In this document: piece after piece, positions 384 to 12,388 of the stretch
Position numbering within the stretch: the first letter of the stretch is position 1
How the letters are laid out: every line of letters begins with the position of its first letter
Assembly (NCBI GenBank): GCA_947651335.1
Contig: CANSYV010000011.1
Span: 1-12,388, forward strand
DNA length: 12,388 nucleotides
Origin: an uncultured Lachnospiraceae bacterium
Lineage (GTDB): Bacteria > Bacillota > Clostridia > Lachnospirales > Lachnospiraceae
Reading direction: 5' to 3'
Translations under genes and position numbers: made by a program
Notes under the pieces: generated by a model
Databases searched by the model: none
The model's input: the letters and a program-made list of their open reading frames with translations, nothing else
What the model was told of the DNA's origin: nothing

Positions 384-1322
384 ATGGGAAAAATACTGGC
401 AATTTGTATCAGCGAAAAAAAAGGAATACAGAAATCACCCATAGATTCGGCTGTACTGTTAGAGGACTGGGGAATTGAAGGAGACGCCCACGGGGGAAAG
501 TGGCACCGTCAGGTGAGCCTTTTGTCCTTTGAGAAAATAGAAGATTTCCGTGCCAAAGGCGCAGACGTTGATTTTGGCGCGTTCGGTGAAAATCTGGTGG
601 TAGAGGGATTCGACCTGAGGAAAATACCTGTAGGTTCCAGATTTCAGATTGGTGATGCCCTTCTGGAACTCACCCAGATCGGAAAAGAATGTCACAGCCA
701 CTGCGCCATTTTCCATGCGGTGGGGGACTGCATCATGCCCAGAGAAGGGGTATTTACCAAAGTGTTAAAGGGTGGTTCCATTAAAGTGGGAGATGAAATT
801 CAGCTGCTTCCCCTTCCTAACGACCGTCCGTTTACAGCCGCAATCGTCACTTTAAGCGATAAAGGCGCTCAGGGTGAAAGAGAGGATAAAAGCGGGCCGG
901 CCATACAGGAGATGCTGGAAAAGGAGGGCTACAATGTGATAGAGACACTGCTCCTGCCAGACGGAATCCAGCCCCTGGCCGCACAGCTTTCCCGCCTGGC
1001 AGACCAGCGGCAGGTGAATGTGATTTTCACCACAGGGGGAACCGGATTTTCAGAGCGGGATCTCACGCCGGAGGCAACCATACAGGTGTGTGACCGCATG
1101 GCAAACGGAATCGCGGAAGCTATGCGGCAGTATTCCCTGACCATCACAGGCAGAGCCATGCTCAGCCGGGCCGTATCCGGAATCCGTAAAAAGACTTTGA
1201 TCGTAAACCTGCCGGGAAGCCCCAAGGCAGTGAAGGAAAGCCTGGAGTATATCCTGCCCCAGCTGGACCACGGCCTGGATATCCTGCGGGGAACAGGGGG
1301 AGAGTGCGGAAGTTCAAAATAG
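384..1322 (+). CDS. MOSC domain-MogA fusion, molybdenum cofactor protein
   Basis: A 312-residue two-domain protein. Residues 1-145 are a small MOSC domain (motifs IEGDAHGGKWHRQVSLLS, FGENLVVEG), related to the C-terminal domain of Moco sulfurases. It has a cysteine/histidine group ECHSHC at 102-107 and C116, where such domains handle sulfur or bind the cofactor. Residues about 149-312 are a MogA/MoaB-type domain, which adenylylates molybdopterin before metal insertion. It shows SDKG (158-161), TTGGTG (216-221), RDLTPEAT (225-232) and NLPGSPKAVKESL (275-287), all characteristic. Such fusions occur in clostridia. The ATG is well placed after AGGAGGAG at 370-377. The gene is bounded by terminators on both sides, so it is probably a single-gene unit, although no convincing complete promoter is visible in the 60 bases before it. 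Confidence 0.93.
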   Translation: MGKILAICISEKKGIQKSPIDSAVLLEDWGIEGDAHGGKWHRQVSLLSFEKIEDFRAKGADVDFGAFGENLVVEGFDLRKIPVGSRFQIGDALLELTQIGKECHSHCAIFHAVGDCIMPREGVFTKVLKGGSIKVGDEIQLLPLPNDRPFTAAIVTLSDKGAQGEREDKSGPAIQEMLEKEGYNVIETLLLPDGIQPLAAQLSRLADQRQVNVIFTTGGTGFSERDLTPEATIQVCDRMANGIAEAMRQYSLTITGRAMLSRAVSGIRKKTLIVNLPGSPKAVKESLEYILPQLDHGLDILRGTGGECGSSK

Positions 1323-1447: not shown

Positions 1448-1476
1448 TTGACAATCTGTCCTTTTGTATGTATAAT
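1448..1476 (+). promoter_or_regulatory. Consensus sigma-A promoter of the uptake operon
   Basis: The -35 box TTGACA (1448-1453) and the -10 box TATAAT (1471-1476) both match the housekeeping consensus exactly and are 17 bases apart, the optimal spacing. The start of transcription should fall near 1482-1485, giving a leader of about 50 bases before the ATG at 1533. A perfect promoter usually needs a repressor to control it, and an inverted repeat lies directly over the expected start of the transcript. Confidence 0.9.
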
Positions 1477-1487
1477 TAAGGAAAAGA

Positions 1488-1513
1488 TCGTTATATTTAT
1501 AAAAAGATAACGA
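1488..1513 (+). promoter_or_regulatory. Inverted repeat resembling a ModE (molybdate) operator
   Basis: Seen: arms TCGTTAT (1488-1494) and ATAACGA (1507-1513) are exact reverse complements separated by 12 bases, starting 11 bases after the -10 box. Known (from memory): the E. coli ModE operator at modA begins CGTTATATT, ends ATAACG and spans 24 bases. Here 1489-1512 also begins CGTTATATT, ends ATAACG and spans 24 bases; the nine central bases differ. Inferred: a ModE-like regulator bound with molybdate or tungstate would block transcription of the operon when the metal is plentiful. No regulator gene is in the window. The repeat could instead be an operator of another family or a weak leader hairpin. 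Confidence 0.6.
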
Positions 1514-1532
1514 AGAAAATCAGGGAGGATAA

Positions 1533-2963
1533 ATGAAAAGGAAAAAATTGATATTTGGTCTGCTTTCGTTATTCTTTATTATATTAAACGATGCAGAAAG
1601 GCCGATGCATATTCTGGCATATTTTGAAAGGGGGCCTGTACAGGTATACGCCGGGGAGCAGAATGTTGTCCTGGAGGCCGGACAGTCTAAGGTTGTGAGT
1701 ATCTCCTTTGACCCTGCCCAGAGCAGACAGCTTCCAGGATGCGGCATGGCAGAATGCCCACAGATCTGCGGCGAAAAGGAATGTCTGGACGAAAACGGCG
1801 AGTGTATCTGTGCCGGGACGGATTACTCTGTCTATTATCCGTTCGCAGAGGTATCTTCCACCAATACAGGGGCGGCGGATGTGAGATACGATGAGGGAGG
1901 ATTCCTGGAAATTAATGCCATTTCACCTGGAACTGCGGTGATTACAGTAACGTCATTTCTCCGGCAGTTTGACAGCACCCAGACGGAAATATCGGTGACG
2001 GTGACAGAGCCTGCGCCGGTTCAGGAATCATCCGGGGGAGGAGGAAATGACGGTTCCCAGCCGTCTGCGCCTGGAAACAGCTTGGTGGAGGGAAACGACG
2101 GGAGCATACACGACGGCACCGGCATCCAGGTGAATGAGGCGGGGGGCTCCAATGAGATTGCTGCCCCGGATTCCACAGGTGTACAGGCAGCAGCCCGCGG
2201 GGGAACGGCGTCAGCGGCCCAGAGCAGTAATTCCGTGTCTGCTTCCTCTGTGAAAAAATCAAAAAAAGCTTCCAAAACCCAAAAGGCCCGGCAGTCAAAA
2301 AAGGCCCAGAGCAGCCAGAAAGAGCAGTCCTCAAAGAACGGGGGAGAAAAAGAAGATTCCGGACATATGGTCATCCGGAGCGACCGGGGCGAGATTATGA
2401 TGATTCCCATTGTTCCAGGGAAAATGGGAAAAAAAGAGCTGGAGCAGATTTTAGATAAAGAGATGTACGCGGATTTTCAGATGAAGGACGAAGCAGAGAC
2501 CATCGAGTATACCTGGGAGTTCTATGGAAAGGACCTGAAAAGGGCGGAGGATTTTGATATGACTATCGAGATGGGGGAGCTTCCTTTTGATAAAGGGGAG
2601 TATGGCTTCACCTCAGACGCGCTCTATCTGTCGTTTGCCCACGACGGAGGGCTTCCGGGGAAGGCATCTGTGTATGTCAGGGTGGCAGATCAGTATTCTG
2701 ACGGGGATACACTGAACTTTTATCTCTATGACAAAGAAAAGAGCATCAGCCTGGAAAAGGAAGACATTGTGGTGGAAAACGGATATGCGGCCCTCCCTCT
2801 TTTCCACTGTTCTGATTACATATTGTCAGCGGAAAAGCTGGAACTTTCCCAGGAAGAAGGCGGGCATTTCCTGGTAATCGCAGCCGCGGCGGTGGCTGTG
2901 GCTGCTGCCGGGGGATCTGCTGTCTTCCTGAAAAAGAGGAAAGCAGGAAGAAGAAATGATTGA
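1533..2963 (+). CDS. Membrane-anchored surface protein with Cys-rich Ig-like domain
   Basis: A 476-residue protein I cannot assign to a named family. Residues 1-18 are a lysine-rich start plus hydrophobic stretch, a Sec signal or N-terminal anchor; no clean cleavage site is visible, the best candidate being after VYA at 40. Residues 41-158 look like a bacterial Ig-like (BIG2-type) domain (LEAGQSKVVSISF, then ISPGTAVITVTS), interrupted by six cysteines at 70, 75, 79, 84, 91 and 93. Residues 165-275 form a Gly/Ser-rich, then Lys-rich linker. Residues 278-435 form a beta-rich domain ending LFHCSDYILS, a pattern common in Firmicute surface proteins. Residues 445-466 are a transmembrane helix followed by KKRKAGRR, placing the protein outside the membrane. 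No LPxTG motif is present. The RBS is GGGAGG at 1523-1528. It is the first gene of the operon, and its stop overlaps the next start by 8 bases. Confidence 0.82.
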   Translation: MKRKKLIFGLLSLFFIILNDAERPMHILAYFERGPVQVYAGEQNVVLEAGQSKVVSISFDPAQSRQLPGCGMAECPQICGEKECLDENGECICAGTDYSVYYPFAEVSSTNTGAADVRYDEGGFLEINAISPGTAVITVTSFLRQFDSTQTEISVTVTEPAPVQESSGGGGNDGSQPSAPGNSLVEGNDGSIHDGTGIQVNEAGGSNEIAAPDSTGVQAAARGGTASAAQSSNSVSASSVKKSKKASKTQKARQSKKAQSSQKEQSSKNGGEKEDSGHMVIRSDRGEIMMIPIVPGKMGKKELEQILDKEMYADFQMKDEAETIEYTWEFYGKDLKRAEDFDMTIEMGELPFDKGEYGFTSDALYLSFAHDGGLPGKASVYVRVADQYSDGDTLNFYLYDKEKSISLEKEDIVVENGYAALPLFHCSDYILSAEKLELSQEEGGHFLVIAAAAVAVAAAGGSAVFLKKRKAGRRND

Positions 2964-3849
2964 GGCAGTACATATTTCCAAGAAATTCGGAAGTTTCTCT
3001 GTGCTCTCGGATGTGAGCTTCCAGGTGGACAGGGGTCAGATCTACGGACTGGTCGGCTGTAACGGAGCAGGCAAGACCACGCTGATGAAAATTTTATGCG
3101 GAATATACCGCCCGGACTGGGGCAGTGCTTCTGTCTTTGGCCAGCCGGTGTTTGAGAATTGGGAGATGAAACGCCGGTGCTTTTTCATGACAGAGGAGGC
3201 AGCGTTCTTTCCCAGGTGTTCGCTGCTGGAGATGAGAAAATTTTATCAGGGGTATTATCCCAAGTGGGAGGATCAGGCTTTTTATGGTCTGTCAGAATGG
3301 TTCGGCATCGACCCATCGGAGAAAATCAGCCGTTTTTCCAAAGGCATGCAGAGGCAGGCAGGGCTGATTCTGGCATTTTCCGTGCACGGGGACTGTCTGT
3401 TCCTGGATGAGGCGTTTGACGGATTGGACTATACCATGCGCAGGCAGGTGAAGGCTATGATCCGGTATTACGCAAAGGCGAGAGACGCCTGCCTGCTGGT
3501 GTCTTCCCATAACCTGCAGGAACTGGAAGGGCTGGCAGACTCCATCGGAATGCTCAGTGACGGGGCGTTGGTATTTGACGGTTCTGTGGAGCAGATGAAG
3601 GAAGAATATCAGACCTGCAGGTTTGCGCGGCCAGAAGGGGCAGGGGATTTGCCAGCCTTGAAGGCGGATTTGCTGGAACAGGACGGGCAGGGGTATCTGT
3701 GTATTCTGAAAGCGTCGAAAGAGGAGGCTCAGAGGAGGCTGGAGAGAATTCATGCCAGGCAGGCCCAGGTCCGCCCGGTTCAGCTGGAAGAATTCTTCCG
3801 CAGAGAAAGGCAGGAGAAGGATGCGGATTGGAAAAAAATCTTTGGGTAA
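2956..3849 (+). CDS. ABC transporter ATPase, YtrB-like
   Basis: A 297-residue cytoplasmic ATPase that would power the permease encoded next. Motifs: Walker A GCNGAGKT (34-41, with Cys where Pro is usual), signature FSKGMQRQ (128-135) instead of LSGGQ, Walker B CLFLDEAFDGLD (148-159, with DEA replacing DEP), and the switch histidine H186 in SSH. The Q-loop region reads FMTEEAAFFP (78-87), so the usual glutamine is absent. These deviations are typical of the YtrB-type ATPases of Firmicutes that pair with ABC-2 permeases, so the protein is probably active. The last 80 residues are an accessory C-terminal region. The start codon lies inside the end of the upstream gene (ATGATTGA, 8-base overlap), indicating translational coupling. 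The transported substrate is unknown. Confidence 0.9.
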   Translation: MIEAVHISKKFGSFSVLSDVSFQVDRGQIYGLVGCNGAGKTTLMKILCGIYRPDWGSASVFGQPVFENWEMKRRCFFMTEEAAFFPRCSLLEMRKFYQGYYPKWEDQAFYGLSEWFGIDPSEKISRFSKGMQRQAGLILAFSVHGDCLFLDEAFDGLDYTMRRQVKAMIRYYAKARDACLLVSSHNLQELEGLADSIGMLSDGALVFDGSVEQMKEEYQTCRFARPEGAGDLPALKADLLEQDGQGYLCILKASKEEAQRRLERIHARQAQVRPVQLEEFFRRERQEKDADWKKIFG

Positions 3850-6055
3850 AGGGAATACCGCTGTGATACACGATTTTTCCTATGTGGTGAAACATCATAT
3901 CTGGATTTTTCTGCTGGGGCTTCTGGCGTTTCTGATTCTTATCCCCTTTTACACAGCCGGACTGCCGGGAGATTCCATTTTCAATATTGAGGTTACCCAT
4001 GACCAGCTGAAGTTCCGTCTGATCCATCCCCAGATGATACCGCTGGCCGCGGCTGCCGCTATGGGGATGGGACTGCTTGCCGGGATGTCTTTGTTTGGAT
4101 TTGTGAGGGATAAGAGAGAAACCACCATTTTCTTTTCCTTGGGAATGACACGGACAGGTCTTTACCGAAACAGGGCCGCGGCCGGGACGGGAATGCTGTC
4201 GGGGTGTACCGGAATACCTGTGGCGGTTTCTCTGTGGCTGAATGTTCAGGCTCTGGGCGGGTATCAGGGACTTGTGAGAAATGCCCTCTATCTGTGGGCA
4301 GGGCTGGCGCTGATGGCCTTGTGCGGCTTTTTCGCGGCCGCCACGGTGAGCTTTTTGTCAGGGACTTTGGGAGAAGCCCTGGTCTGCTGGGCTGGGGTGA
4401 TGGGAACAGTGACGGCCCTGTGTTACTGCTGCAATCTTTTGATGGAAAAATTATATTGGGGAAATGCCAGGGGTGTGGTGTCTTATACCGGGGGCGGGCA
4501 GATTATGCCCTCCCTGCTGGAGGAATACGCCTGTTTCAATCCTTTGCTGTTTTTTCTGGATGAGATGGAAACACACGGGCAGTTTCTCAGGCCTTTAAAG
4601 TCTGATGTGCCTCAGCCTGTCTCGCCAAAAATGCTGGCGGGCTGGGCTCTGGTGTGTGTGGCGCTGGCTGTGGCCGCAGGCTTTTTTCTGTGGAGAAGGA
4701 AGGCGGAGGAGGCGGGAATCGGGGGAGTTCATCTGGTTCTGGAACAGTGGGTGGTTCTCCTGACCGGTTTTCTGGCCTTTTCTCTGTTGTTTTCGTTTTT
4801 TTATGATTACAGTCCGGTTATGGCTGCGGCCATGGGGATGGGGGGATTTTACGGAGTGCATATATTCTGGAGGCGGCTTTTATTTCCCAGGAGTGGGAGG
4901 GGGCACGTCCGCGGCCTGGCGGGGAAGGCGCTGTTAGTACTCTTATCTGCGGCCTGGCGGGGGGCGCTGGTGATGCTGGTGTGTGTGGTGTTTCACAGCG
5001 GATTTTTCCACAGTGACAGGAGATTTCTGGAAAAAGGAGAGATCCGGGAGGCACAGATATCTTACGTGGGTGCCCCTGGATATCTCTATGAGGAGGCCTT
5101 GGGAAGCAGCACAGGGCGCAGTTATTACATTGCCAGCCGCCTGTCCGTGAAGGAAGAAGCCTCCATGGGGAAGGTGAAGGCCCTCCAGGAAATTTTTATC
5201 AATTCCGAAAGAAAGGAGAAGAAACCTGGGAAGGAAATCTCAGATACGGTGGTTCCCTATGATATCTGTTTTTGTTACACAGATACAAAGGGCAAAGAGC
5301 ATATCTGGTACTATGACCGGGCTTCCTATGGACAGCTGGAACAGATGCTTTCCATGGAAGAAGAACCGGAGATTGAACAGAAACAGGCGGGGATATTTGA
5401 CAGTGATACGGACAGCCCCGGCTGGGCGGCGAAGGCGTATCAGACAGGCAGTGTGTTCCTGTCAGATGGGTACTTTACAGGGACGTTCCAGCTCACTTTG
5501 TCAGAGGAGAAGAGAGGGGAGCTTTTGGCTGCCGTGGCAGAAGACCTGGAGGATATGGGGCTTCAGGGGCGCTATTTCCCGGAAGGTACGGCCAGGGCCG
5601 TGCTCATGTTCACCGGGCGGGGAGAAGAAGACTGCCAGTATTATGCCTATCATCTCAACAACGGGTTTCTTTATCTGACACCGGATTATGAACGGACACT
5701 GGCCTGGCTGGAAGAGAATCAGCTTTTGTCCCTTCTGCCAAAAGAACCGAAGATAACCTGTGTGTATCTTCAGAAGCTGGACCCCTATATGGGCATTCAT
5801 GGGCCCCAGATGCCCATGGGGATGTATTTTATGTCTTATTGTGCCGATACAGCAGATGAATTTCTCATTCAGAAAGACTTTGGGAAAAAATATACATTTG
5901 ACGATAAAGATGAAATACAGGAAATTGCCGCGGGCCTGCAGAATGGCTGCTTTATGAGCCGGGGCGGGTATCTGGCGGCAGTGAAAATAAAAGGGCAGGA
6001 AAAGTACCGGTATTTGTTTCTGCCAAAAGAGAAGGTGCCTGGATTTGTTAGATAG
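3821..6055 (+). CDS. ABC-2-type permease with large extracytoplasmic domain (DUF6449-like)
   Basis: A membrane protein of 744 residues from the ATG at 3821, chosen because AGGAGAAGG stands directly before it. An earlier in-frame ATG at 3752 would add 23 residues rich in Arg and Ser and deepen the overlap with the ATPase gene. About nine hydrophobic helices fill residues 20-400. A cytoplasmic loop near 94-120 carries RDKRETTIFFSLGMTRTGLY, the FFxSLxxTR pattern of ABC-2 permeases. The last ~340 residues are hydrophilic and should lie outside the membrane. They resemble what I recall as DUF6449, attached to YtrC/D-like permeases; that name is uncertain. It partners the preceding ATPase (29-base overlap). 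Possible roles are export, membrane-stress defence or handling of surface proteins; nothing in the sequence decides. Confidence 0.82.
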   Translation: MRIGKKSLGKGNTAVIHDFSYVVKHHIWIFLLGLLAFLILIPFYTAGLPGDSIFNIEVTHDQLKFRLIHPQMIPLAAAAAMGMGLLAGMSLFGFVRDKRETTIFFSLGMTRTGLYRNRAAAGTGMLSGCTGIPVAVSLWLNVQALGGYQGLVRNALYLWAGLALMALCGFFAAATVSFLSGTLGEALVCWAGVMGTVTALCYCCNLLMEKLYWGNARGVVSYTGGGQIMPSLLEEYACFNPLLFFLDEMETHGQFLRPLKSDVPQPVSPKMLAGWALVCVALAVAAGFFLWRRKAEEAGIGGVHLVLEQWVVLLTGFLAFSLLFSFFYDYSPVMAAAMGMGGFYGVHIFWRRLLFPRSGRGHVRGLAGKALLVLLSAAWRGALVMLVCVVFHSGFFHSDRRFLEKGEIREAQISYVGAPGYLYEEALGSSTGRSYYIASRLSVKEEASMGKVKALQEIFINSERKEKKPGKEISDTVVPYDICFCYTDTKGKEHIWYYDRASYGQLEQMLSMEEEPEIEQKQAGIFDSDTDSPGWAAKAYQTGSVFLSDGYFTGTFQLTLSEEKRGELLAAVAEDLEDMGLQGRYFPEGTARAVLMFTGRGEEDCQYYAYHLNNGFLYLTPDYERTLAWLEENQLLSLLPKEPKITCVYLQKLDPYMGIHGPQMPMGMYFMSYCADTADEFLIQKDFGKKYTFDDKDEIQEIAAGLQNGCFMSRGGYLAAVKIKGQEKYRYLFLPKEKVPGFVR

Positions 6056-7073
6056 AAAGAAGAAAAATTTCGGCGGCCTGGCAGGGATATTGCTGTTGTG
6101 TCTGGCTGTTTTGATGGTATTTTCCGCCATGGCCGGACGTTACTTTGTTTCCTTTTCTGAATTCGTTCATATTTTGGGTATGAAGCTTTCCGGGGAGGTT
6201 TATGAGCCTTCTATGGCGGAGACTGTTTTATTCGGTACCCGGTTTCCCAGGATTGCGGCCGCTGTGGTCATTGGCTGTGGATTGTCCATGTCCGGGGCCG
6301 CTTATCAGGGGATTTTCAGAAACCCCATGGTTTCTCCCGATCTTCTGGGCGCGTCCGCGGGTGCCGGGTTTGGAGCCGCGCTGGGGTTTCTGCTGGAGCT
6401 GAGCCTTTGGGCCATCCAGCTTCTGGCCTTTGGTATGGGGCTTTTCGCCGTGCTGCTGACCTGTGTGCTGGGGCGGCTGGTGAGAGGGCAGATGGATCAT
6501 AACCGGATTGTCCTGGTATTAAGCGGCATGGTAGTGGGCTCCTTGTTCCAGGCGCTGATCTCCCTGGTAAAATATGTGGCGGATCCCTTTGATACCATGC
6601 CGTCAATCGCTTTCTGGCTCATGGGCGGCCTCACCTATGTGACGGCCCTGGACATGGTATTTCTCCTGGCGCCGGTGGCTGTGGGAACCATTGTGCTTCT
6701 TATGTTCCGCTGGCGGATAAATCTGCTGTCCTTAGGGCCGGATGAGGCGGAGACCATGGGGGTGTCCGTGAAACGAAGCCAGGGGGTGATCATTTTCTGT
6801 GCCACATTGATGACAGCCTCCTGTGTGGCTGTGGGCGGGATGATCGGATGGGCAGGCTTGATTGTGCCCCATTTTTCCAGAATGCTGGCAGGGCCGGACA
6901 ACCGCCGCATGATGCCCTGCGCGGCTTTGTTAGGAGGAATTTTCCTGCTTATTGTGGACGACGCGGCCAGATGTCTGTTTCCCCAGGAGATCCCCATCGG
7001 CATTTTGACAGCCATGGTGGGGGCGCCTGTGTTTATCGGGCTTTTGGCAAAGGGAAGGAGAGGATTTGTATGA
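6045..7073 (+). CDS. BtuC/FecCD-type ABC importer permease
   Basis: A 342-residue inner-membrane permease of the BtuC/FecCD/MolB class, expected to work as a homodimer with about ten helices per subunit. Family motifs are clear: GLSMSGAAYQGIFRNPMVSP (79-98) with LLGASAGAGFG following, the cytoplasmic coupling segment GMIGWAGLIVPHFSRMLAG (265-283) and EIPIGILTAMVGAPVFIGLL (315-334). The class imports siderophore-iron, heme, cobalamin and, in MolBCA systems, molybdate or tungstate. The start is a TTG at 6045 preceded by GAGAAGG (6030-6036) and overlaps the upstream gene by 11 bases; no ATG fits without losing the first helix. The rare start and overlap suggest coupled, moderated translation. 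It works with the next two genes. Confidence 0.94.
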   Translation: MLDRKKKNFGGLAGILLLCLAVLMVFSAMAGRYFVSFSEFVHILGMKLSGEVYEPSMAETVLFGTRFPRIAAAVVIGCGLSMSGAAYQGIFRNPMVSPDLLGASAGAGFGAALGFLLELSLWAIQLLAFGMGLFAVLLTCVLGRLVRGQMDHNRIVLVLSGMVVGSLFQALISLVKYVADPFDTMPSIAFWLMGGLTYVTALDMVFLLAPVAVGTIVLLMFRWRINLLSLGPDEAETMGVSVKRSQGVIIFCATLMTASCVAVGGMIGWAGLIVPHFSRMLAGPDNRRMMPCAALLGGIFLLIVDDAARCLFPQEIPIGILTAMVGAPVFIGLLAKGRRGFV

Positions 7074-8476
7074 GAAAGGGCTGGAAAATGGCGTGCCTTA
7101 CGTTTTTCCTGACACTGGCCCTGGGGGGATGCCATAAGGAAAAAGCGCTGGAATATTCCATCGCGGTCAGCGGTGAAGCCAAAGAGGCGGGCACCGTGGA
7201 GTTTCTGGGGTACAGCATCAATGTCTATGAGGATGAAGCCAGCAACCCCTGCGGCACCTGCCAGCAGCAGCCGGTTCATCTGTATGTGGGGGCAGACGCA
7301 GGTGAGACGGCTCAGGCCATTTCCGATACCGTGGAGCGGGCGGATGATTTATGGGATGTGGTTTCCTGTGAAGATGGGGATGTGGTGCTCAGGGAAAAGG
7401 AAGATGGGAGCATTCAGGAGATTTTCCCCCTGGCCGCCGTGGAGGGCCTGTCCTTGAAGGGAACAGCCAGGGGGCGGCAGGTTCCCCAGGTATCCGGTAC
7501 TGGCGGGGAGCCGGCAGGGAAGGAGCAGAAAAGGGAATTCCCTGATGACCCCCAGAGACTGGCCGCCGTGTACGGCCCCTCCTATGAGCTGCTGGTGATG
7601 CTGGGCGCGGAAGAGAAAATTGTTGTCCGGGCAGATGTGCAGACGGCAGACTTTCCCTGGGCCGAGAAGGTGTTCGGCCGAATCGTGGAGACGCCCATGC
7701 TGAATAACGTGCACACTTCGGTGAACTTCGAGGAATTGATGAGCTTTTCCCCGGATATGGTGTATACCTTTCCCAGGCAGAATGAATTGAATCAGCTCTC
7801 CCAGGCAGGGGTGGCTGCCCTTCCCGGGGAAACCAGCGGACACCTGGAAGGGGTGAAAAAGCAGGTGAGAGAGTATGCCCTGACGCTGGGAGATGAGGCA
7901 AAAAAACGGGCAGACCGGTACTGCCAGTATTTTGATGAGAAGCTTTCCATGATTCAGGAGGCCACAGATTCTCTGGAGGAAAAGGACCGTCCAAAAGTCT
8001 ATTATGCCGGCGTGGACATTCTCACAACTTACGGAAAATATTCAGATATTATGGAAGTCATCCAGGCGGCGGGGGGAACTCCCGTGTCCAGGGAGCTGGA
8101 GGCGGGAAACAGGACAGAGATCGACTACGAACAGCTGATGAAGTGGAATCCGGATGTGATCTTCCTGGACCACGGCGGCATGAACCACGGGGAGACGGTG
8201 GAAGAACTTCTGGAGGAAATCTCCCAAAATAAAGTCTGCCAGTCACTGGCCGCGGTGAAAAACAGACAGATTCACATGAGCCCCTCCGGGGTTTTCTACT
8301 GGGATATGGGAATTCAGAAAATCCTTCTGATAATGCACATGGCGGAGATTCTCCATCCGGAAACCTTTCAGGATCTGGACATGGAAAGGGAGGTTATGGA
8401 ATTTTACCAGGAATTTTTCCAGTACGGCCTGACCCGGGAGGAAGCCGTGAAGATTTTGAACAGGGAAAGTCCTTAG
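7070..8476 (+). CDS. Lipoprotein substrate-binding protein (Peripla_BP_2) with extra N-terminal domain
   Basis: A 468-residue solute-binding lipoprotein of a BtuCDF/MolBCA-class importer. The signal peptide ends in the lipobox LGGC with C21 as the lipidated residue. Residues about 160-468 are the usual two-lobe binding domain: AVYGPSYELLVMLGAEEKIV (166-184), FSPDMVYTF (225-233), VYYAGVDILTTYGKYSDIMEVI (309-330), WNPDVIFLD (358-366) and the C-terminal MSPSGVFYWDMG...LHPETF (402-432). Residues 22-150 are not part of that fold. This segment has NPCGTC (59-64), C100 and a compact VHLYVGADAGETAQAI region, and I do not recognise it. The ATG overlaps the permease stop as ATGA, with AAGGAGAGG upstream; a longer in-frame start at 6848 lies inside the permease and would lose the signal peptide. 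The ligand is unknown; molybdate/tungstate is inferred from context. Confidence 0.92.
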   Translation: MRKGWKMACLTFFLTLALGGCHKEKALEYSIAVSGEAKEAGTVEFLGYSINVYEDEASNPCGTCQQQPVHLYVGADAGETAQAISDTVERADDLWDVVSCEDGDVVLREKEDGSIQEIFPLAAVEGLSLKGTARGRQVPQVSGTGGEPAGKEQKREFPDDPQRLAAVYGPSYELLVMLGAEEKIVVRADVQTADFPWAEKVFGRIVETPMLNNVHTSVNFEELMSFSPDMVYTFPRQNELNQLSQAGVAALPGETSGHLEGVKKQVREYALTLGDEAKKRADRYCQYFDEKLSMIQEATDSLEEKDRPKVYYAGVDILTTYGKYSDIMEVIQAAGGTPVSRELEAGNRTEIDYEQLMKWNPDVIFLDHGGMNHGETVEELLEEISQNKVCQSLAAVKNRQIHMSPSGVFYWDMGIQKILLIMHMAEILHPETFQDLDMEREVMEFYQEFFQYGLTREEAVKILNRESP

Positions 8477-8513
8477 AGAGTGTCTTACAATTGCAAAGGA
8501 AGCGGAAAAAAGC

Positions 8514-9314
8514 GTGGAGAAAATGCTGGAGATTAAAAACGCCGTGTTTGGATACACAGGAAAAAGGAAACATAAAGTGATTCTGGACGGGATTTCCTTT
8601 GGGCTGGCACCTGGAGAGCTGTTGTGCATTCTGGGGGCAAACGGGGCCGGAAAGACCACCATGTACCGTTCCATTTTAGGGTTTCAGTCTCTGCTGGGCG
8701 GGGAGGTATGCCTAGAGGGAAGGGATATCCGGAAAATTCCCCGGGTGGAACTGGCCAGGCAGATTGCATATGTCCCCCAATACCACGCGCCCCCGTTTCC
8801 TTACCGGGTCTTTGATGTGGTGCTCATGGGGCGAAGCGCCCATGTGCCGGGATTTTCCATGCCTGGGCGAAAGGATGAAGCGGCTGCCCTTTCGGCTCTG
8901 GAGCGTATGGGAATCAGCCATATGAAGGATGAGATTTATACGGAAATCAGCGGCGGGGAACGTCAGCTGGTGCTGATTGCCCGGGCCCTGGCACAGCAGG
9001 CGCGGTTTATCCTCATGGACGAACCGGCGTCCAATCTGGACTATGGGAACCAGATGCGTCTGCTGAGGGAAATCAAGAGGCTTGCCGGGGAGGGAATGGG
9101 AATCTGCTTCACCACCCATTACCCGGAACACGCCTTCTTAACCGAGGCGTGTGTCCTGGCCATAGAAGGGCAGAAGAAGTGGCGGGAAGGGCCTGCTGAG
9201 GAAGTGGTCACGGAAGAACTTCTGCGCCGTATGTACCAGGTGGACGCCCTGATTGGGACATACACGGATGAACAGGGACGTAAGTCCAGACATATTACGG
9301 CATGGATCAAATAG
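8514..9314 (+). CDS. ABC importer ATPase (FecE/BtuD/MolC type)
   Basis: A 266-residue ATPase that completes the importer with the permease at 6045 and the binding protein at 7070. All canonical motifs are present: Walker A GANGAGKT (41-48), Q-loop VPQ (Q89), signature SGGERQ (146-151), Walker B FILMDEP (165-171), D-loop SNLD (173-176) and switch histidine H202 in TTH. In contrast to the other ATPase in this operon, nothing is degenerate. The start is taken as GTG at 8514 with AAAGGAAGCGG (8495-8505) upstream; ATG at 8523, three codons in, is an alternative. The gap to the binding-protein gene is 37 bases with no terminator or promoter visible. Confidence 0.94.
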   Translation: MEKMLEIKNAVFGYTGKRKHKVILDGISFGLAPGELLCILGANGAGKTTMYRSILGFQSLLGGEVCLEGRDIRKIPRVELARQIAYVPQYHAPPFPYRVFDVVLMGRSAHVPGFSMPGRKDEAAALSALERMGISHMKDEIYTEISGGERQLVLIARALAQQARFILMDEPASNLDYGNQMRLLREIKRLAGEGMGICFTTHYPEHAFLTEACVLAIEGQKKWREGPAEEVVTEELLRRMYQVDALIGTYTDEQGRKSRHITAWIK

Positions 9315-9325
9315 AATCTGATGTT

Positions 9326-9333
9326 AGGAGGAG
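9326..9333 (+). promoter_or_regulatory. Ribosome binding site deciding the DUF364 start
   Basis: AGGAGGAG is a near-perfect Shine-Dalgarno sequence four bases before the ATG at 9338. It favours that start over the in-frame ATG at 9302, which lies within the end of the upstream ATPase gene and lacks a comparable site. Confidence 0.8.
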
Positions 9334-9337
9334 AGAG

Positions 9338-10078
9338 ATGACAAGAGAGGAATTGTTTCCTGTACTGGCGGAGAAATTCCGGCATGTGATTGAGGAACAC
9401 CATCTGCTGGATGAAGAAGTCAAAATCCAGTGCAGGGCCCTGTCGCCCCAGGAAGCCATTGGGGAGACCAAAAGGAAAGATTATCCCATTCTGGGTGGAA
9501 AGGAGGTGATGATACAGGCGGAGTTTGACGGGGGAATCGGCCAGGCGTTTACCAGCACGCCGTCTGCCTTTCGGGGAACCCTCCGGGAGGTGCTGGATCT
9601 GGATATAATCAGTAATCCCCATGACAGATCCATATTTATCGCGGCGCTGAACGCAGTCATGAGAAAGCTGGGACTGTGTGGCCGTTCCATTCACTGCAGA
9701 GACGGCGGACCGGAGGAATGTGCCGTGAAAGCGGCGGATATGCTGATGAAAACCTATGGAAATGTGAAAATAGCCCAGATCGGTTTTCAGCCGGCCCTGC
9801 TGGAACGGTTGTCTGAGAAGTTCGAGATGCGCCTTCTGGATATCAATCCGGAACTGGTGGGAAAGACCCGCTTCGGCGTAGAGATCTTAGACGGGGTGAA
9901 AGCCTATGAGGACACGGTTTTACACTGGGCGGAGCTGATTTTATGTACGGGAAGCACCCTGTCAAATGCCACGATTGCAGATTATATCAATCTGGATAAA
10001 GAGGTATTGTTTTACGGAACCACGGCCGCGGGAGCGGCAGCGCTTCTGGGATTGAAGCGGCTCTGCTATGGACTGTAG
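9338..10078 (+). CDS. DUF4213/DUF364 protein, putative heavy-metal chelation
   Basis: A 246-residue soluble protein without signal peptide or membrane segment, so cytoplasmic. Residues about 8-95 match the DUF4213 (enolase-N-like) domain, with GKEVMIQAEF and GIGQAFTSTPSAFRG (66-80). Residues about 105-245 match the Rossmann-like DUF364 domain (Pfam PF04016, described as a putative heavy-metal chelation domain), with IHCRDGGPEECA (118-129), IAQIGFQPALLERL, LLDINPELVG (167-175), the hallmark ILCTGSTLSNATI (201-213) and LFYGTTAAGAAALLG (224-238). Cysteines at 120, 128 and 203 could contribute to metal binding. The family is often found beside metal importers; its biochemical role is not established. 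Here it lies 23 bases after the importer ATPase, so it probably receives, sequesters or senses the imported metal. The start at 9338 is set by the strong RBS just upstream. Confidence 0.88.
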   Translation: MTREELFPVLAEKFRHVIEEHHLLDEEVKIQCRALSPQEAIGETKRKDYPILGGKEVMIQAEFDGGIGQAFTSTPSAFRGTLREVLDLDIISNPHDRSIFIAALNAVMRKLGLCGRSIHCRDGGPEECAVKAADMLMKTYGNVKIAQIGFQPALLERLSEKFEMRLLDINPELVGKTRFGVEILDGVKAYEDTVLHWAELILCTGSTLSNATIADYINLDKEVLFYGTTAAGAAALLGLKRLCYGL

Positions 10079-10116
10079 TACTGTGCAGTACATACAGGAC
10101 CGGCAGACACAGTTAT

Positions 10117-10153
10117 TAGAGCGCGGCAAAAAGCAGTTTTCAGACGCGCTTTG
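10117..10153 (+). repeat. Inverted repeat in the leader of the last gene
   Basis: AGCGCG (10120-10125) and CGCGCT (10145-10150) are exact reverse complements. Flanking A-U and G-U pairs extend the stem to about nine bases around a 19-base loop that itself contains AAAA-GCAG-TTTT. A smaller hairpin, GTACT-GTGC-AGTAC, lies at 10078-10091, overlapping the end of the upstream stop codon. Neither is followed by a T-run, so they do not look like terminators. They may be transcript-processing or stabilising structures separating the importer genes from the surface-protein gene. I see no convincing promoter in 10079-10179. Confidence 0.45.
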
Positions 10154-10179
10154 GAAAAAACACAAAACAGGAGGAAAAA

Positions 10180-12388
10180 ATGAGATTTTCAAAGAAAACA
10201 GCGGCTTGGATATTGTCAGCGGTTATGACAGTATCTTCTATGAGCACGGCAGTATTTGCGGCGGAGATACCTGATCCTGTCATGGAGACAATGGTGGAGG
10301 AGTCTCTGGAAAATGAGGCAGCGGCGGAACTTCCGGCTGTCCAGGAAACCACAGACGACGCGCTGGCAGAGCCGGCGCCTGAAATAGAAGACGTGGATAA
10401 GACTGCCGCGGATGAGACTGCAGACCAGGGGGCTGTCAATGAAGCGTTAGAGGAATCTTCCAATGAAGCGGCAGTATCCGCGGGAAATGAACCAGCCACT
10501 GACTGGGTGGAGATTGACCAGATCGCAGGCGCCACAGATGTGAGCGCGCAGGGATTCGGCATCCGTCATTTTGACGAAAACGGCACACTGATAAAAGAGA
10601 AATACTGGTCAGAAGATGATATGAAAGCACTGGCGGAAAAGTATGATAAGACACCGTATTATACATTTGGCTGTGGTATGCTTGGTTATCCTTCTCTTGC
10701 GAAAGGGGAAGGCGTAAAACTGACAGACCTGCTGGAGGAATCCGGAATTTCCTTTCAGGCAGGCCAGTCCCTGCGGCTGAGAGCCACAGATGTGCTGGCA
10801 CAGGAAATGGAAATCGGTGAAGTTGCATGGCGGACCGGAAAAATCACTTATGCCAGCGAAGCAAAGGAACAGGAATGGAAAGCCGTTCTGGCCGACGTGT
10901 CAAAGGCATCCGCCAACGGCTATTATACAAACTTTACCTATTCCTATCTGATGGGAATGCCCAGGTATTCGTTTGCCCAGGGAATGGCAGATGCCATGAA
11001 GAAAAATCCCAACAGCACCCAGAGCGATTTGTATAACAACCCGGAAGTGATTGCAAGCGGAAAGGCCGGCGGGGTTGTCTCCCCTCTGTTGTGTTTCGGT
11101 TTTGGACAGGAGTATGCCAACAGCGATAAAATTGTGTCAGGCAATGGCATTTCTGATATTGAGCTGTCACGCAGCAGCGCTTACCGCTTCTGTTTCGGAC
11201 AGGCTCTGGATACCAATGAGGCGAAAGCTGAGGTGATATCCAGCGCCAACACCAGAATGCAGACTGCCTATAATGTATTCGGGATTGATATCTGGGATGG
11301 ACAGAGTGCTGCGGTGAACACGAAAGGAACCTATCACATCAGAGAAAAGGCGAAATTTACAGTAGCTCCCGCAGAGGGCGACGCAAAAGAAGTTCTGGAC
11401 CACATTCAAAAAGTGGCTCTGGCAAAAGAAGGCGGGGAAGAAAAAGAGCTTACAGCGGCAGATTATACAACTGTCTCTGACGGCATTGAGCTTCACGCGG
11501 ACGTAATTACTGACCCGGGAACTTATACCATTAAGTTAAAAGCAGAAAACTATTATCTGGCAGAGAGAACTTTTGAAGTAGGCGCGGAAAGGAAAAAGGC
11601 GGCCTACAGCAAGGGAGACGACATCAGCGGTACTGTATTTTACATTGCCGTGGATACGGACGGAAACGGAAAAGTTACAGATGAAGAGGATGCCGTCTAT
11701 TACTATACTCTGGACGAGATCAAAAGCGAAAATGAAGAAACCGCATTTGCCTATATCAATCATGGCGAAGGCGAAACTGCCAATGTGAAGGGAGCTAAGC
11801 TGAGCACCCTGATTACGAATCTGAAGGGCGTGGACATTGGAAAAGACTGGGTGATTCAGTACATGGAGGAAGATGCGTTCCATGCTGTAAATGAAGAATA
11901 TCAGGATACAGTGGGGGGACTGACCGACGAGAACGGCGTGGGAAATGGTTCCGGCGCAGGGATTGCCGCAGATACTATGATTGGATGGGCCAACAAGCTT
12001 GTCTATGATACCCCCAATGAGAACAGTGTGAGTGATACCGATTATATTCCATTTACGGAATATAAGAGAGAGCCCTCCCATGTACGGGCATACAGACAGA
12101 CAAAAAGCGCCAACAGCGTGGTATTGAAAATGTTAAAAGGCGTGGTCATCACCAATAAGCAGGAAAACACAGTGCTTCCCTCAGGAAAATGCGGCTACAA
12201 GCTGATAAGCGTGGACAGCAGCGGCAAGAAGATTGCTGACGATTACGATGCAGCCGGGCTTCTGGAAGGCATGAACTGGGCAGCATCCGCCAACGTGAAT
12301 GTGCCCTGGGCCAAGCTGACAGACCAGCCGTCGAAAACCATTACCATAGGAGCGGATACAACACAGGAAGTTCCCTTCACCTATGAGG
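10180..12388 (+). CDS. Large secreted protein with two sulfite-oxidase-fold-like domains (partial)
   Basis: At least 736 residues, open at the window end. Residues 1-27 are a Sec signal peptide cleaved after VFA. Residues 28-108 are an acidic linker. A first domain (about 109-370) has GVKLTDLLEESGI (178-190), VVSPLLCFGFG and SAYRFCFGQAL. This pattern is seen in secreted Firmicute proteins distantly related to the sulfite-oxidase molybdopterin-binding domain. An Ig-like stretch follows (about 380-465). A second, diverged copy (about 470-655) has YYYTLDEI, then GAKLSTLITNLKGV (538-551), and carries an EF-hand loop at 492-503. No twin-arginine motif is present, so export is unfolded and a cytoplasmically loaded Moco is unlikely. 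A surface receptor or adhesin is more probable than an enzyme. The RBS is AGGAGG before the ATG. The anchor, if any, lies beyond the window. Confidence 0.75.
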   Translation, partial: MRFSKKTAAWILSAVMTVSSMSTAVFAAEIPDPVMETMVEESLENEAAAELPAVQETTDDALAEPAPEIEDVDKTAADETADQGAVNEALEESSNEAAVSAGNEPATDWVEIDQIAGATDVSAQGFGIRHFDENGTLIKEKYWSEDDMKALAEKYDKTPYYTFGCGMLGYPSLAKGEGVKLTDLLEESGISFQAGQSLRLRATDVLAQEMEIGEVAWRTGKITYASEAKEQEWKAVLADVSKASANGYYTNFTYSYLMGMPRYSFAQGMADAMKKNPNSTQSDLYNNPEVIASGKAGGVVSPLLCFGFGQEYANSDKIVSGNGISDIELSRSSAYRFCFGQALDTNEAKAEVISSANTRMQTAYNVFGIDIWDGQSAAVNTKGTYHIREKAKFTVAPAEGDAKEVLDHIQKVALAKEGGEEKELTAADYTTVSDGIELHADVITDPGTYTIKLKAENYYLAERTFEVGAERKKAAYSKGDDISGTVFYIAVDTDGNGKVTDEEDAVYYYTLDEIKSENEETAFAYINHGEGETANVKGAKLSTLITNLKGVDIGKDWVIQYMEEDAFHAVNEEYQDTVGGLTDENGVGNGSGAGIAADTMIGWANKLVYDTPNENSVSDTDYIPFTEYKREPSHVRAYRQTKSANSVVLKMLKGVVITNKQENTVLPSGKCGYKLISVDSSGKKIADDYDAAGLLEGMNWAASANVNVPWAKLTDQPSKTITIGADTTQEVPFTYE

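Follow-up and report, generated by a model that had tools for sequence, protein, structure and literature searches.

A ModE-type operator candidate over the start of a probable molybdenum or tungsten acquisition operon in an uncultured Lachnospiraceae bacterium

Which regulator reads the palindrome that lies over the start of a large transporter and surface-protein operon, and what does this operon bring into the cell? Both questions are raised by the window, i.e. the whole stretch of DNA that was analysed (12,388 nucleotides). Judging from sequence comparisons, the palindrome is probably (with a probability of about 0.77) the site of a ModE-type repressor acting on an operon (1533-12388) for the acquisition of molybdenum or tungsten. 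The site itself, its position, its conservation at modA, formate dehydrogenase and operons of this type, and the presence of a suitable regulator gene are computational observations, which are presented below.

The palindrome, CGTTATATTTATAAAAAGATAACG, occupies positions 1489-1512 and is symmetrical at 10 of its 12 base pairs; an earlier sequence-only reading of the window had placed it at 1488-1513, which adds one more T/A pair. It follows a sigma-A type promoter with TTGACA at 1448-1453, a 17-nt spacer and TATAAT at 1471-1476. Between this -10 box and the palindrome there are 12 nt (11, as the sequence-only reading had it, if the palindrome is taken to begin with the extra T at 1488), and another 20 nt separate the palindrome from the ATG at 1533. 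The statement that this is the sole such repeat in the window also holds, as CGTTAT-N12-ATAACG was found once there and in none of 200 shuffles of the window. The pattern CGTTATAT-N8-14-ATAACG occurs once in the draft genome to which the window belongs (2.0 Mb, 61.66% complete). An RNA element at the operon start was considered and rejected, since Rfam gave only chance-level matches in the window and, at the gathering score, no match close to where the operon begins in any of ten related loci. The features of the window are as follows:

384-1322, plus strand: MOSC-MoaB-like Mo-cofactor protein (PF03473 and PF00994), an upstream neighbour outside the operon
1448-1476, plus strand: sigma-A type promoter TTGACA-N17-TATAAT, agreeing with the consensus at 12/12 positions and ranked first among 12 promoter-like sites of the window
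1489-1512, no strand assigned: putative ModE-type operator in the start-site region; same motif at modA and formate dehydrogenase in the genus
1523-1528, plus strand: probable ribosome-binding site GGGAGG, as read from the sequence
1533-2963, plus strand: P1, exported protein with a six-cysteine motif, a C-terminal hydrophobic segment and a basic tail; no Pfam family
2956-3849, plus strand: ABC1, exporter-like ABC transporter ATPase (PF00005; closest in NCBIfam to export ATPases, with scores below cut-off)
3752-6055, plus strand: large membrane protein adjoining ABC1, probably a permease, whose start may instead be 3821; no Pfam family reaches the cut-off
6045-7073, plus strand: FecCD-type permease (PF01032, E 4.3e-80)
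7070-8476, plus strand: substrate-binding lipoprotein, Peripla_BP_2 (PF01497), with an N-terminal extension of ~150 residues
8514-9314, plus strand: ABC2, ATPase that probably works with the FecCD permease (PF00005; best NCBIfam matches are heme/corrinoid ATPases, below cut-off)
9302-10078, plus strand: DUF364 protein (PF04016, E 3e-8)
10180-12388, plus strand: P10, large exported surface protein (PF07550), cut by the contig end

P10 has a full-length form, P0001, of 1076 aa and 99% identity. The six-cysteine motif of P1 (residues 66-95, LPGCGM-ECPQ-CGEK-CL-ENGEC-C) is conserved in all three aligned proteins and may serve metal binding or form disulfides. Upstream of the MOSC-MoaB gene, positions 2-265 hold the end of a formate/nitrite transporter gene (PF01226), which fits a formate dehydrogenase theme of the neighbourhood.

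The ends and the 24-base length of the palindrome had been likened to the ModE operator of E. coli modA. The sequence upstream of modA in E. coli K-12, which was retrieved and compared, carries CGTTATATTGTCGCCTACATAACG and confirms this likeness. The two are identical at 16 of 24 positions: they share the first 9 and the last 6 bases and differ over most of the centre. Both are imperfect 24-bp palindromes with shared ends, placed just before an operon for (in the window, presumptive) molybdenum uptake, but the centre is GTCGCC in E. coli and A/T-rich in the window, and the window site belongs to a member of the Lachnospiraceae and has a target operon other than modABC. The consensus ends of the ModE operator are given as CGNTAT and ATANCG (PMC545781), and the window site is a 24-bp palindrome with such ends.

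Five genomes of this Lachnospiraceae genus were searched with the query CGTTATNTTNNNNNNAANATAACG, using the reversed pattern as a control. At up to two mismatches there were 18 sites versus 4 for the control. All ten sites with no more than one mismatch, two per genome, stand before modA (5), formate dehydrogenase (3) or an operon of the window type (2). The motif precedes the molybdate transport gene modA in 5/5 genomes, the formate dehydrogenase operon in G002, G003 and G004, and the window-type operon in the window's own genome and G001. The recurrence before mod or fdh genes that the sequence-only reading had proposed to look for was thus found, at modA or at modA and fdh, in every genome of the genus. 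One two-mismatch site, on contig C110 of the window's own genome, falls inside an unrelated reading frame. ModA and ModB (TIGR01256, TIGR02141) and MoaA of this genome score above the NCBIfam cut-offs, and the G003 enzyme matches the formate dehydrogenase alpha family TIGR01591 with 844 bits; the matches of G003 ModC and G001 MobA are below the cut-offs. In G001 just 183 bases lie between a contig end and the start of the formate dehydrogenase match, which cuts off most of the region upstream, and the window's own draft holds a fragmentary match only.

A second formate dehydrogenase, 69% identical and with one in-frame TGA, probably encoding selenocysteine, was seen in G002 (C26:21669-24359), G003 (C2:165256-167946) and G001 (C88:8292-10982). 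No genus site with 0-1 mismatch lies at these coordinates; the formate dehydrogenase sites precede the TGA-free copy.

The position of the sites differs between targets. At modA and the window-type operons all 7 palindromes begin 7-12 nt after TATAAT, i.e. in a repressor position, and the remark of the sequence-only reading that this placement favours repression extends to all of them, as a protein bound just after the -10 box would block initiation. At formate dehydrogenase the sites lie upstream of the promoter, with TATAAT ~50 nt downstream, in 3/3 cases (activator position). From sequence, this is the geometry one would expect of a regulator repressing uptake and activating a molybdenum enzyme. 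E. coli ModE is described as activating moaA (PMC2408646); the same source speaks of ModE upregulating modABCD, and a reference title quoted there calls ModE the repressor of that operon.

A scan with a ModE position weight matrix had also been suggested. Our matrix was built from the 8 modA and formate dehydrogenase sites only, leaving the operon sites out, and was compared with 1000 Markov nulls. It ranks position 1489 first in the window at 28.1 bits (next, 11.7), above the maximum of 21.5 bits reached in the nulls. The E. coli site (11.4 bits) and a site of Formimonas warabiya described below (9.2 bits) score inside the null range of the genus matrix, so that their support for the motif comes from their ends and position, not from the matrix.

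The sequence-only reading had made the presence of a ModE-family regulator gene a test of its proposal, and one ModE-type HTH protein (C46:166-429) is encoded in the window's own draft genome. It matches TIGR00637 with E 2.6e-18 and 66.7 bits, below the curated cut-off of 98.5. Its gene lies in a molybdenum cofactor/mod cluster with MobB, MoeA, a second MoCF-domain protein, MOSC and MoaC (by Pfam), MoaA, ModA and ModB. Pfam finds an N-terminal NTP_transf_3 and a C-terminal HTH_1 domain in this protein and no Mop (molybdate-binding) domain up to E 5. Because an NTP-transferase-like domain replaces the molybdate-binding domains, it is not a classical ModE. At E 1e-3 it has 232 homologs, both domains being present in 117 of the 120 listed, and 36 fusion proteins picked from these 120 were aligned. 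AGGxSxRMG is the nucleotide-binding motif of MobA/MocA nucleotidyltransferases; none of the 36 fusion proteins has it, in contrast to two MobA-like proteins from the genus. At E 0.01 the PDB relatives are limited to three ModE-family sequences (2ijl, 1b9m, 1o7l), and these match in the HTH. Compared with E. coli ModE (PDB 1b9m), the protein has a homologous HTH, but this is C-terminal and partnered by NTP_transf_3 lacking the MobA motif, and no Mop domain was found. We regard it as a candidate regulator in which a ModE-type HTH is fused to a degenerate MobA/MocA-like domain. The single-domain ModE of Desulfovibrio (PMC545781) is similar in having a DNA-binding domain without molybdate-binding domains and predicted sites at mod genes, but the site predicted in that paper, CGGTCACG-N14-CGTGACCG, is unlike the window palindrome.

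Sites with at most one mismatch were then sought in 299 genomes of the family, again with the reversed pattern as a control. Raw counts show no enrichment (39 sites in 34 genomes versus 34 control sites in 29 genomes), and outside the genus only gene context and co-occurrence set the sites apart from the control. A ModE-type HTH (TIGR00637, E 1e-8) is encoded in 20/34 site-bearing genomes versus 43/265 others (Fisher 2.8e-7), or in 18/32 (p 2.2e-6) without the two genus genomes; genomes with the control pattern show no such link (5/29, p 0.81). At this threshold, 14 of the 34 site-bearing genomes lack a ModE-type HTH. In a by-eye comparison, 12/39 sites (in 11 genomes, the window's own included) lie within ~6 kb of a ModE-type HTH gene versus 0/34 control sites; with the genus left out, this holds for 11/35 sites (p 3.9e-4).

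For 28 of the 35 sites outside the genus the loci were retrieved, together with 29 control loci, and searched by tblastn with a set of molybdenum and FecCD genes. A gene of this set is nearby at 13/28 sites versus 1/29 control loci (p 1.6e-4), or at 12 versus 0 when loci with a generic ATPase only (L080 for the sites, L104 for the control) are dropped; 15/28 sites have no gene of the set nearby. In G016, G028, G138 and G298 the site stands just 5' of a binding protein-FecCD operon. The G028 site lies inside the 5' extension of a mechanically called ORF, ahead of the probable Met start, and a short modE ends this operon. Two further family sites have neighbours linked to selenium: L162 4507, adjacent to a xanthine dehydrogenase of the selenium-dependent type (TIGR03311, 1354.7 bits), which site is L068 among the 28 retrieved sites and outside the 13 with a tested gene, and L165 4404, not among the 28, beside an AIRS-domain protein that is SelD-like by eye.

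What the operon carries can be approached through its importer. FecCD-type permeases belong to type II importers, and the operon has the gene set of the type II importer MolBC-A: a FecCD permease, a Peripla_BP_2 protein and an ATPase. Among 17 PDB relatives of the binding protein, HI_1472/MolA (3psa, E 2.2e-11) ranks third, behind 4ovk and 4hn9, one of which is an iron-complex protein. MolBC-A of Haemophilus is reported to import molybdate as a low-affinity system, MolA binding tungstate as well, and molB is mentioned in that report as repressed in a molybdate-dependent way, the factor being unknown (PMC4031551). The likeness lies in the importer type and in the kinship of MolA to the window binding protein, but the window importer comes together with P1, an ABC pair of exporter-like type, DUF364 and large surface proteins, and the low affinity of MolBC-A (PMC4031551) means that kinship to MolA is by itself no argument for uptake under scarcity. 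DUF364 genes have been reported beside iron, tungsten, vanadium and molybdenum transport genes, with a proposed role in making flavin or pterin derivatives (PMC2954201). In G022, a surface protein beside P1 (L019 2-1237) matches PF00174, a molybdopterin-binding oxidoreductase domain (31.9 bits, cut-off 24), and the profile of its family matches the sulfite oxidase structure 6y0k with E 0.0015; PF00174 has no match in P10 of the window or in 10 surface proteins of other loci. Kinship of the P10 domain with sulfite oxidase is at most hinted at by a weak profile link (hhalign E 0.0024, probability 12).

The repressor position common with modA, together with the evidence from MolA, DUF364 and PF00174, makes molybdenum or tungsten acquisition the most likely role of the operon. 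From these data we infer binding, the direction of control, the effector and the substrate as follows. The ModE-HTH fusion regulator would bind the palindrome when molybdenum, tungsten or finished cofactor is plentiful and, once bound, would block RNA polymerase at the operon start site, as at modA. When molybdenum or tungsten is scarce the operon would be expressed, and the FecCD-type importer, the binding protein, the surface proteins and the DUF364 protein would help to acquire the metal. The link to molybdate or tungstate drawn in the sequence-only reading is largely supported by the genus sites, the matrix, the Formimonas layout and the HTH co-occurrence. A slight reservation comes from the Formimonas site, which covers no more than part of the operon, and from the low affinity of MolBC-A.

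An operator of ModE type could also control the import of another nutrient, such as an iron/heme chelate or a corrinoid, needed for molybdenum enzymes, so that control would coordinate the operon without defining its substrate. The FecCD, Peripla_BP_2 and ATPase families do serve heme, B12 and siderophores as well, the best NCBIfam matches of the ATPase are of heme and corrinoid types (although below cut-off), P10 carries the Shr-like HID domain PF07550, and an iron-complex protein is one of the two PDB matches ranked above MolA. We nevertheless consider this unlikely, as the site has the repressor position seen at modA and not the activator position of formate dehydrogenase, the same kind of site stands at FecCD operons of four other genera, and the binding protein is related to MolA. 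The reported vicinity of DUF364 to genes for the transport of iron, tungstate, vanadium and molybdate (PMC2954201) fits either substrate.

A more specific, and decidedly improbable, version of molybdenum or tungsten acquisition is that the metal enters as a Mo- or W-pterin complex and not as the bare oxyanion. Sulfite-oxidase-like surface proteins would capture the complex, the FecCD importer would carry it in, and DUF364 would process it. What the regulator senses through its non-catalytic MobA/MocA-like domain would be finished cofactor and not molybdate.

Is the site conserved at homologous operons? Scanning genomes with P1 yielded 10 loci, two of them being the G001 (L142) and G022 (L143) regions. 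In the other 8 (L144-L151), P1 relatives were found in 7 by blastp of reading frames and in the eighth by tblastn. Relatives of the large membrane protein occur at 5/8 (L144-L147, L151), the binding protein with ABC2 at 4/8 (L144, L145, L147, L151), FecCD at 3/8 (L145, L147, L151) and DUF364 at 1/8 (L147). Large surface proteins lie around these genes, and several loci end at contig or retrieval limits. Conservation upstream of such operons, on which the sequence-only reading had staked its proposal, held for G001 and for part of the Formimonas warabiya operon and failed at L145-L151, seven homologous loci without the palindrome as retrieved; the 5' end of the G022 operon lies off its contig. 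In F. warabiya, TTGACA-17-TATAAT is followed after 14 nt by CGTTATTCTATTTACGGCATAACG (CGTTAT-N12-ATAACG), before surface-protein, P1, ABC1 and permease genes. The binding-protein and ABC2 genes are upstream of this site and not after it, a FecCD gene was not found at the locus, and the genome has two ModE-type HTH genes. In the same locus (L144 1876-3413), the query that finds the binding protein, whose N-terminal extension in the window lies at 7070-7530, also matches a small separate gene ahead of it.

Among the L145-L151 genomes, a clear ModE-type HTH is encoded in that of L147, in spite of the missing site, and two others give marginal matches (E 5e-4 and 9e-4). The homologous operons of four MAGs have another palindrome just after the promoter, with the sequence TATAGTNACTATA or differing from it by one base: L146 (4640-5020), L147 (800-1170), L148 (800-1070) and L149 (7540-7770). 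Its exact sites, 5 in the four genomes versus 7 for the reversed control, are not above control; 3/5 lie at the homologous operon and 2/5 have no tested gene nearby. Since three of these four genomes contain no ModE-type HTH at E 1e-3, another regulator may occupy the same place there.

In the window, too, the palindrome might be read by an unrelated regulator, e.g. another LysR-type protein, its likeness to the ModE operator being convergent. Of the 9 HTH_1 matches in the draft genome just one is of ModE type, the site is missing from 7/10 homologous loci, and a ModE-type HTH is lacking in the 14 site-bearing family genomes noted above. Yet the sites co-occur with ModE-type HTH genes and lie near them in 12/39 cases versus 0/34 in the control, and their ends and length equal those of the E. 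coli operator, which leaves this explanation very improbable. A chance palindrome is highly improbable and was rejected: although family-wide sites at one mismatch are no commoner than the reversed control, none of the 200 shuffles contained the motif, the leave-out matrix score exceeds all 1000 nulls, and the position is conserved in G001 and Formimonas.

A ModE-type repressor site on a molybdenum or tungsten acquisition operon would bring E. coli-type ModE control into the Lachnospiraceae and would indicate the probable class of substrate for a conserved but unnamed operon that includes surface proteins. Among the open-licence PMC titles and abstracts listed, where 'ModE' also matches 'mode', none dealt with the fusion or with Lachnospiraceae ModE sites. 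The candidate would be a ModE-type regulator partnered by a cofactor-enzyme-like domain without the catalytic motif. For Desulfovibrio the question has been raised how molybdenum is sensed by ModE HTH proteins that lack molybdate-binding domains (PMC545781), and the fusion of the HTH to a MobA/MocA-like domain makes this question testable.
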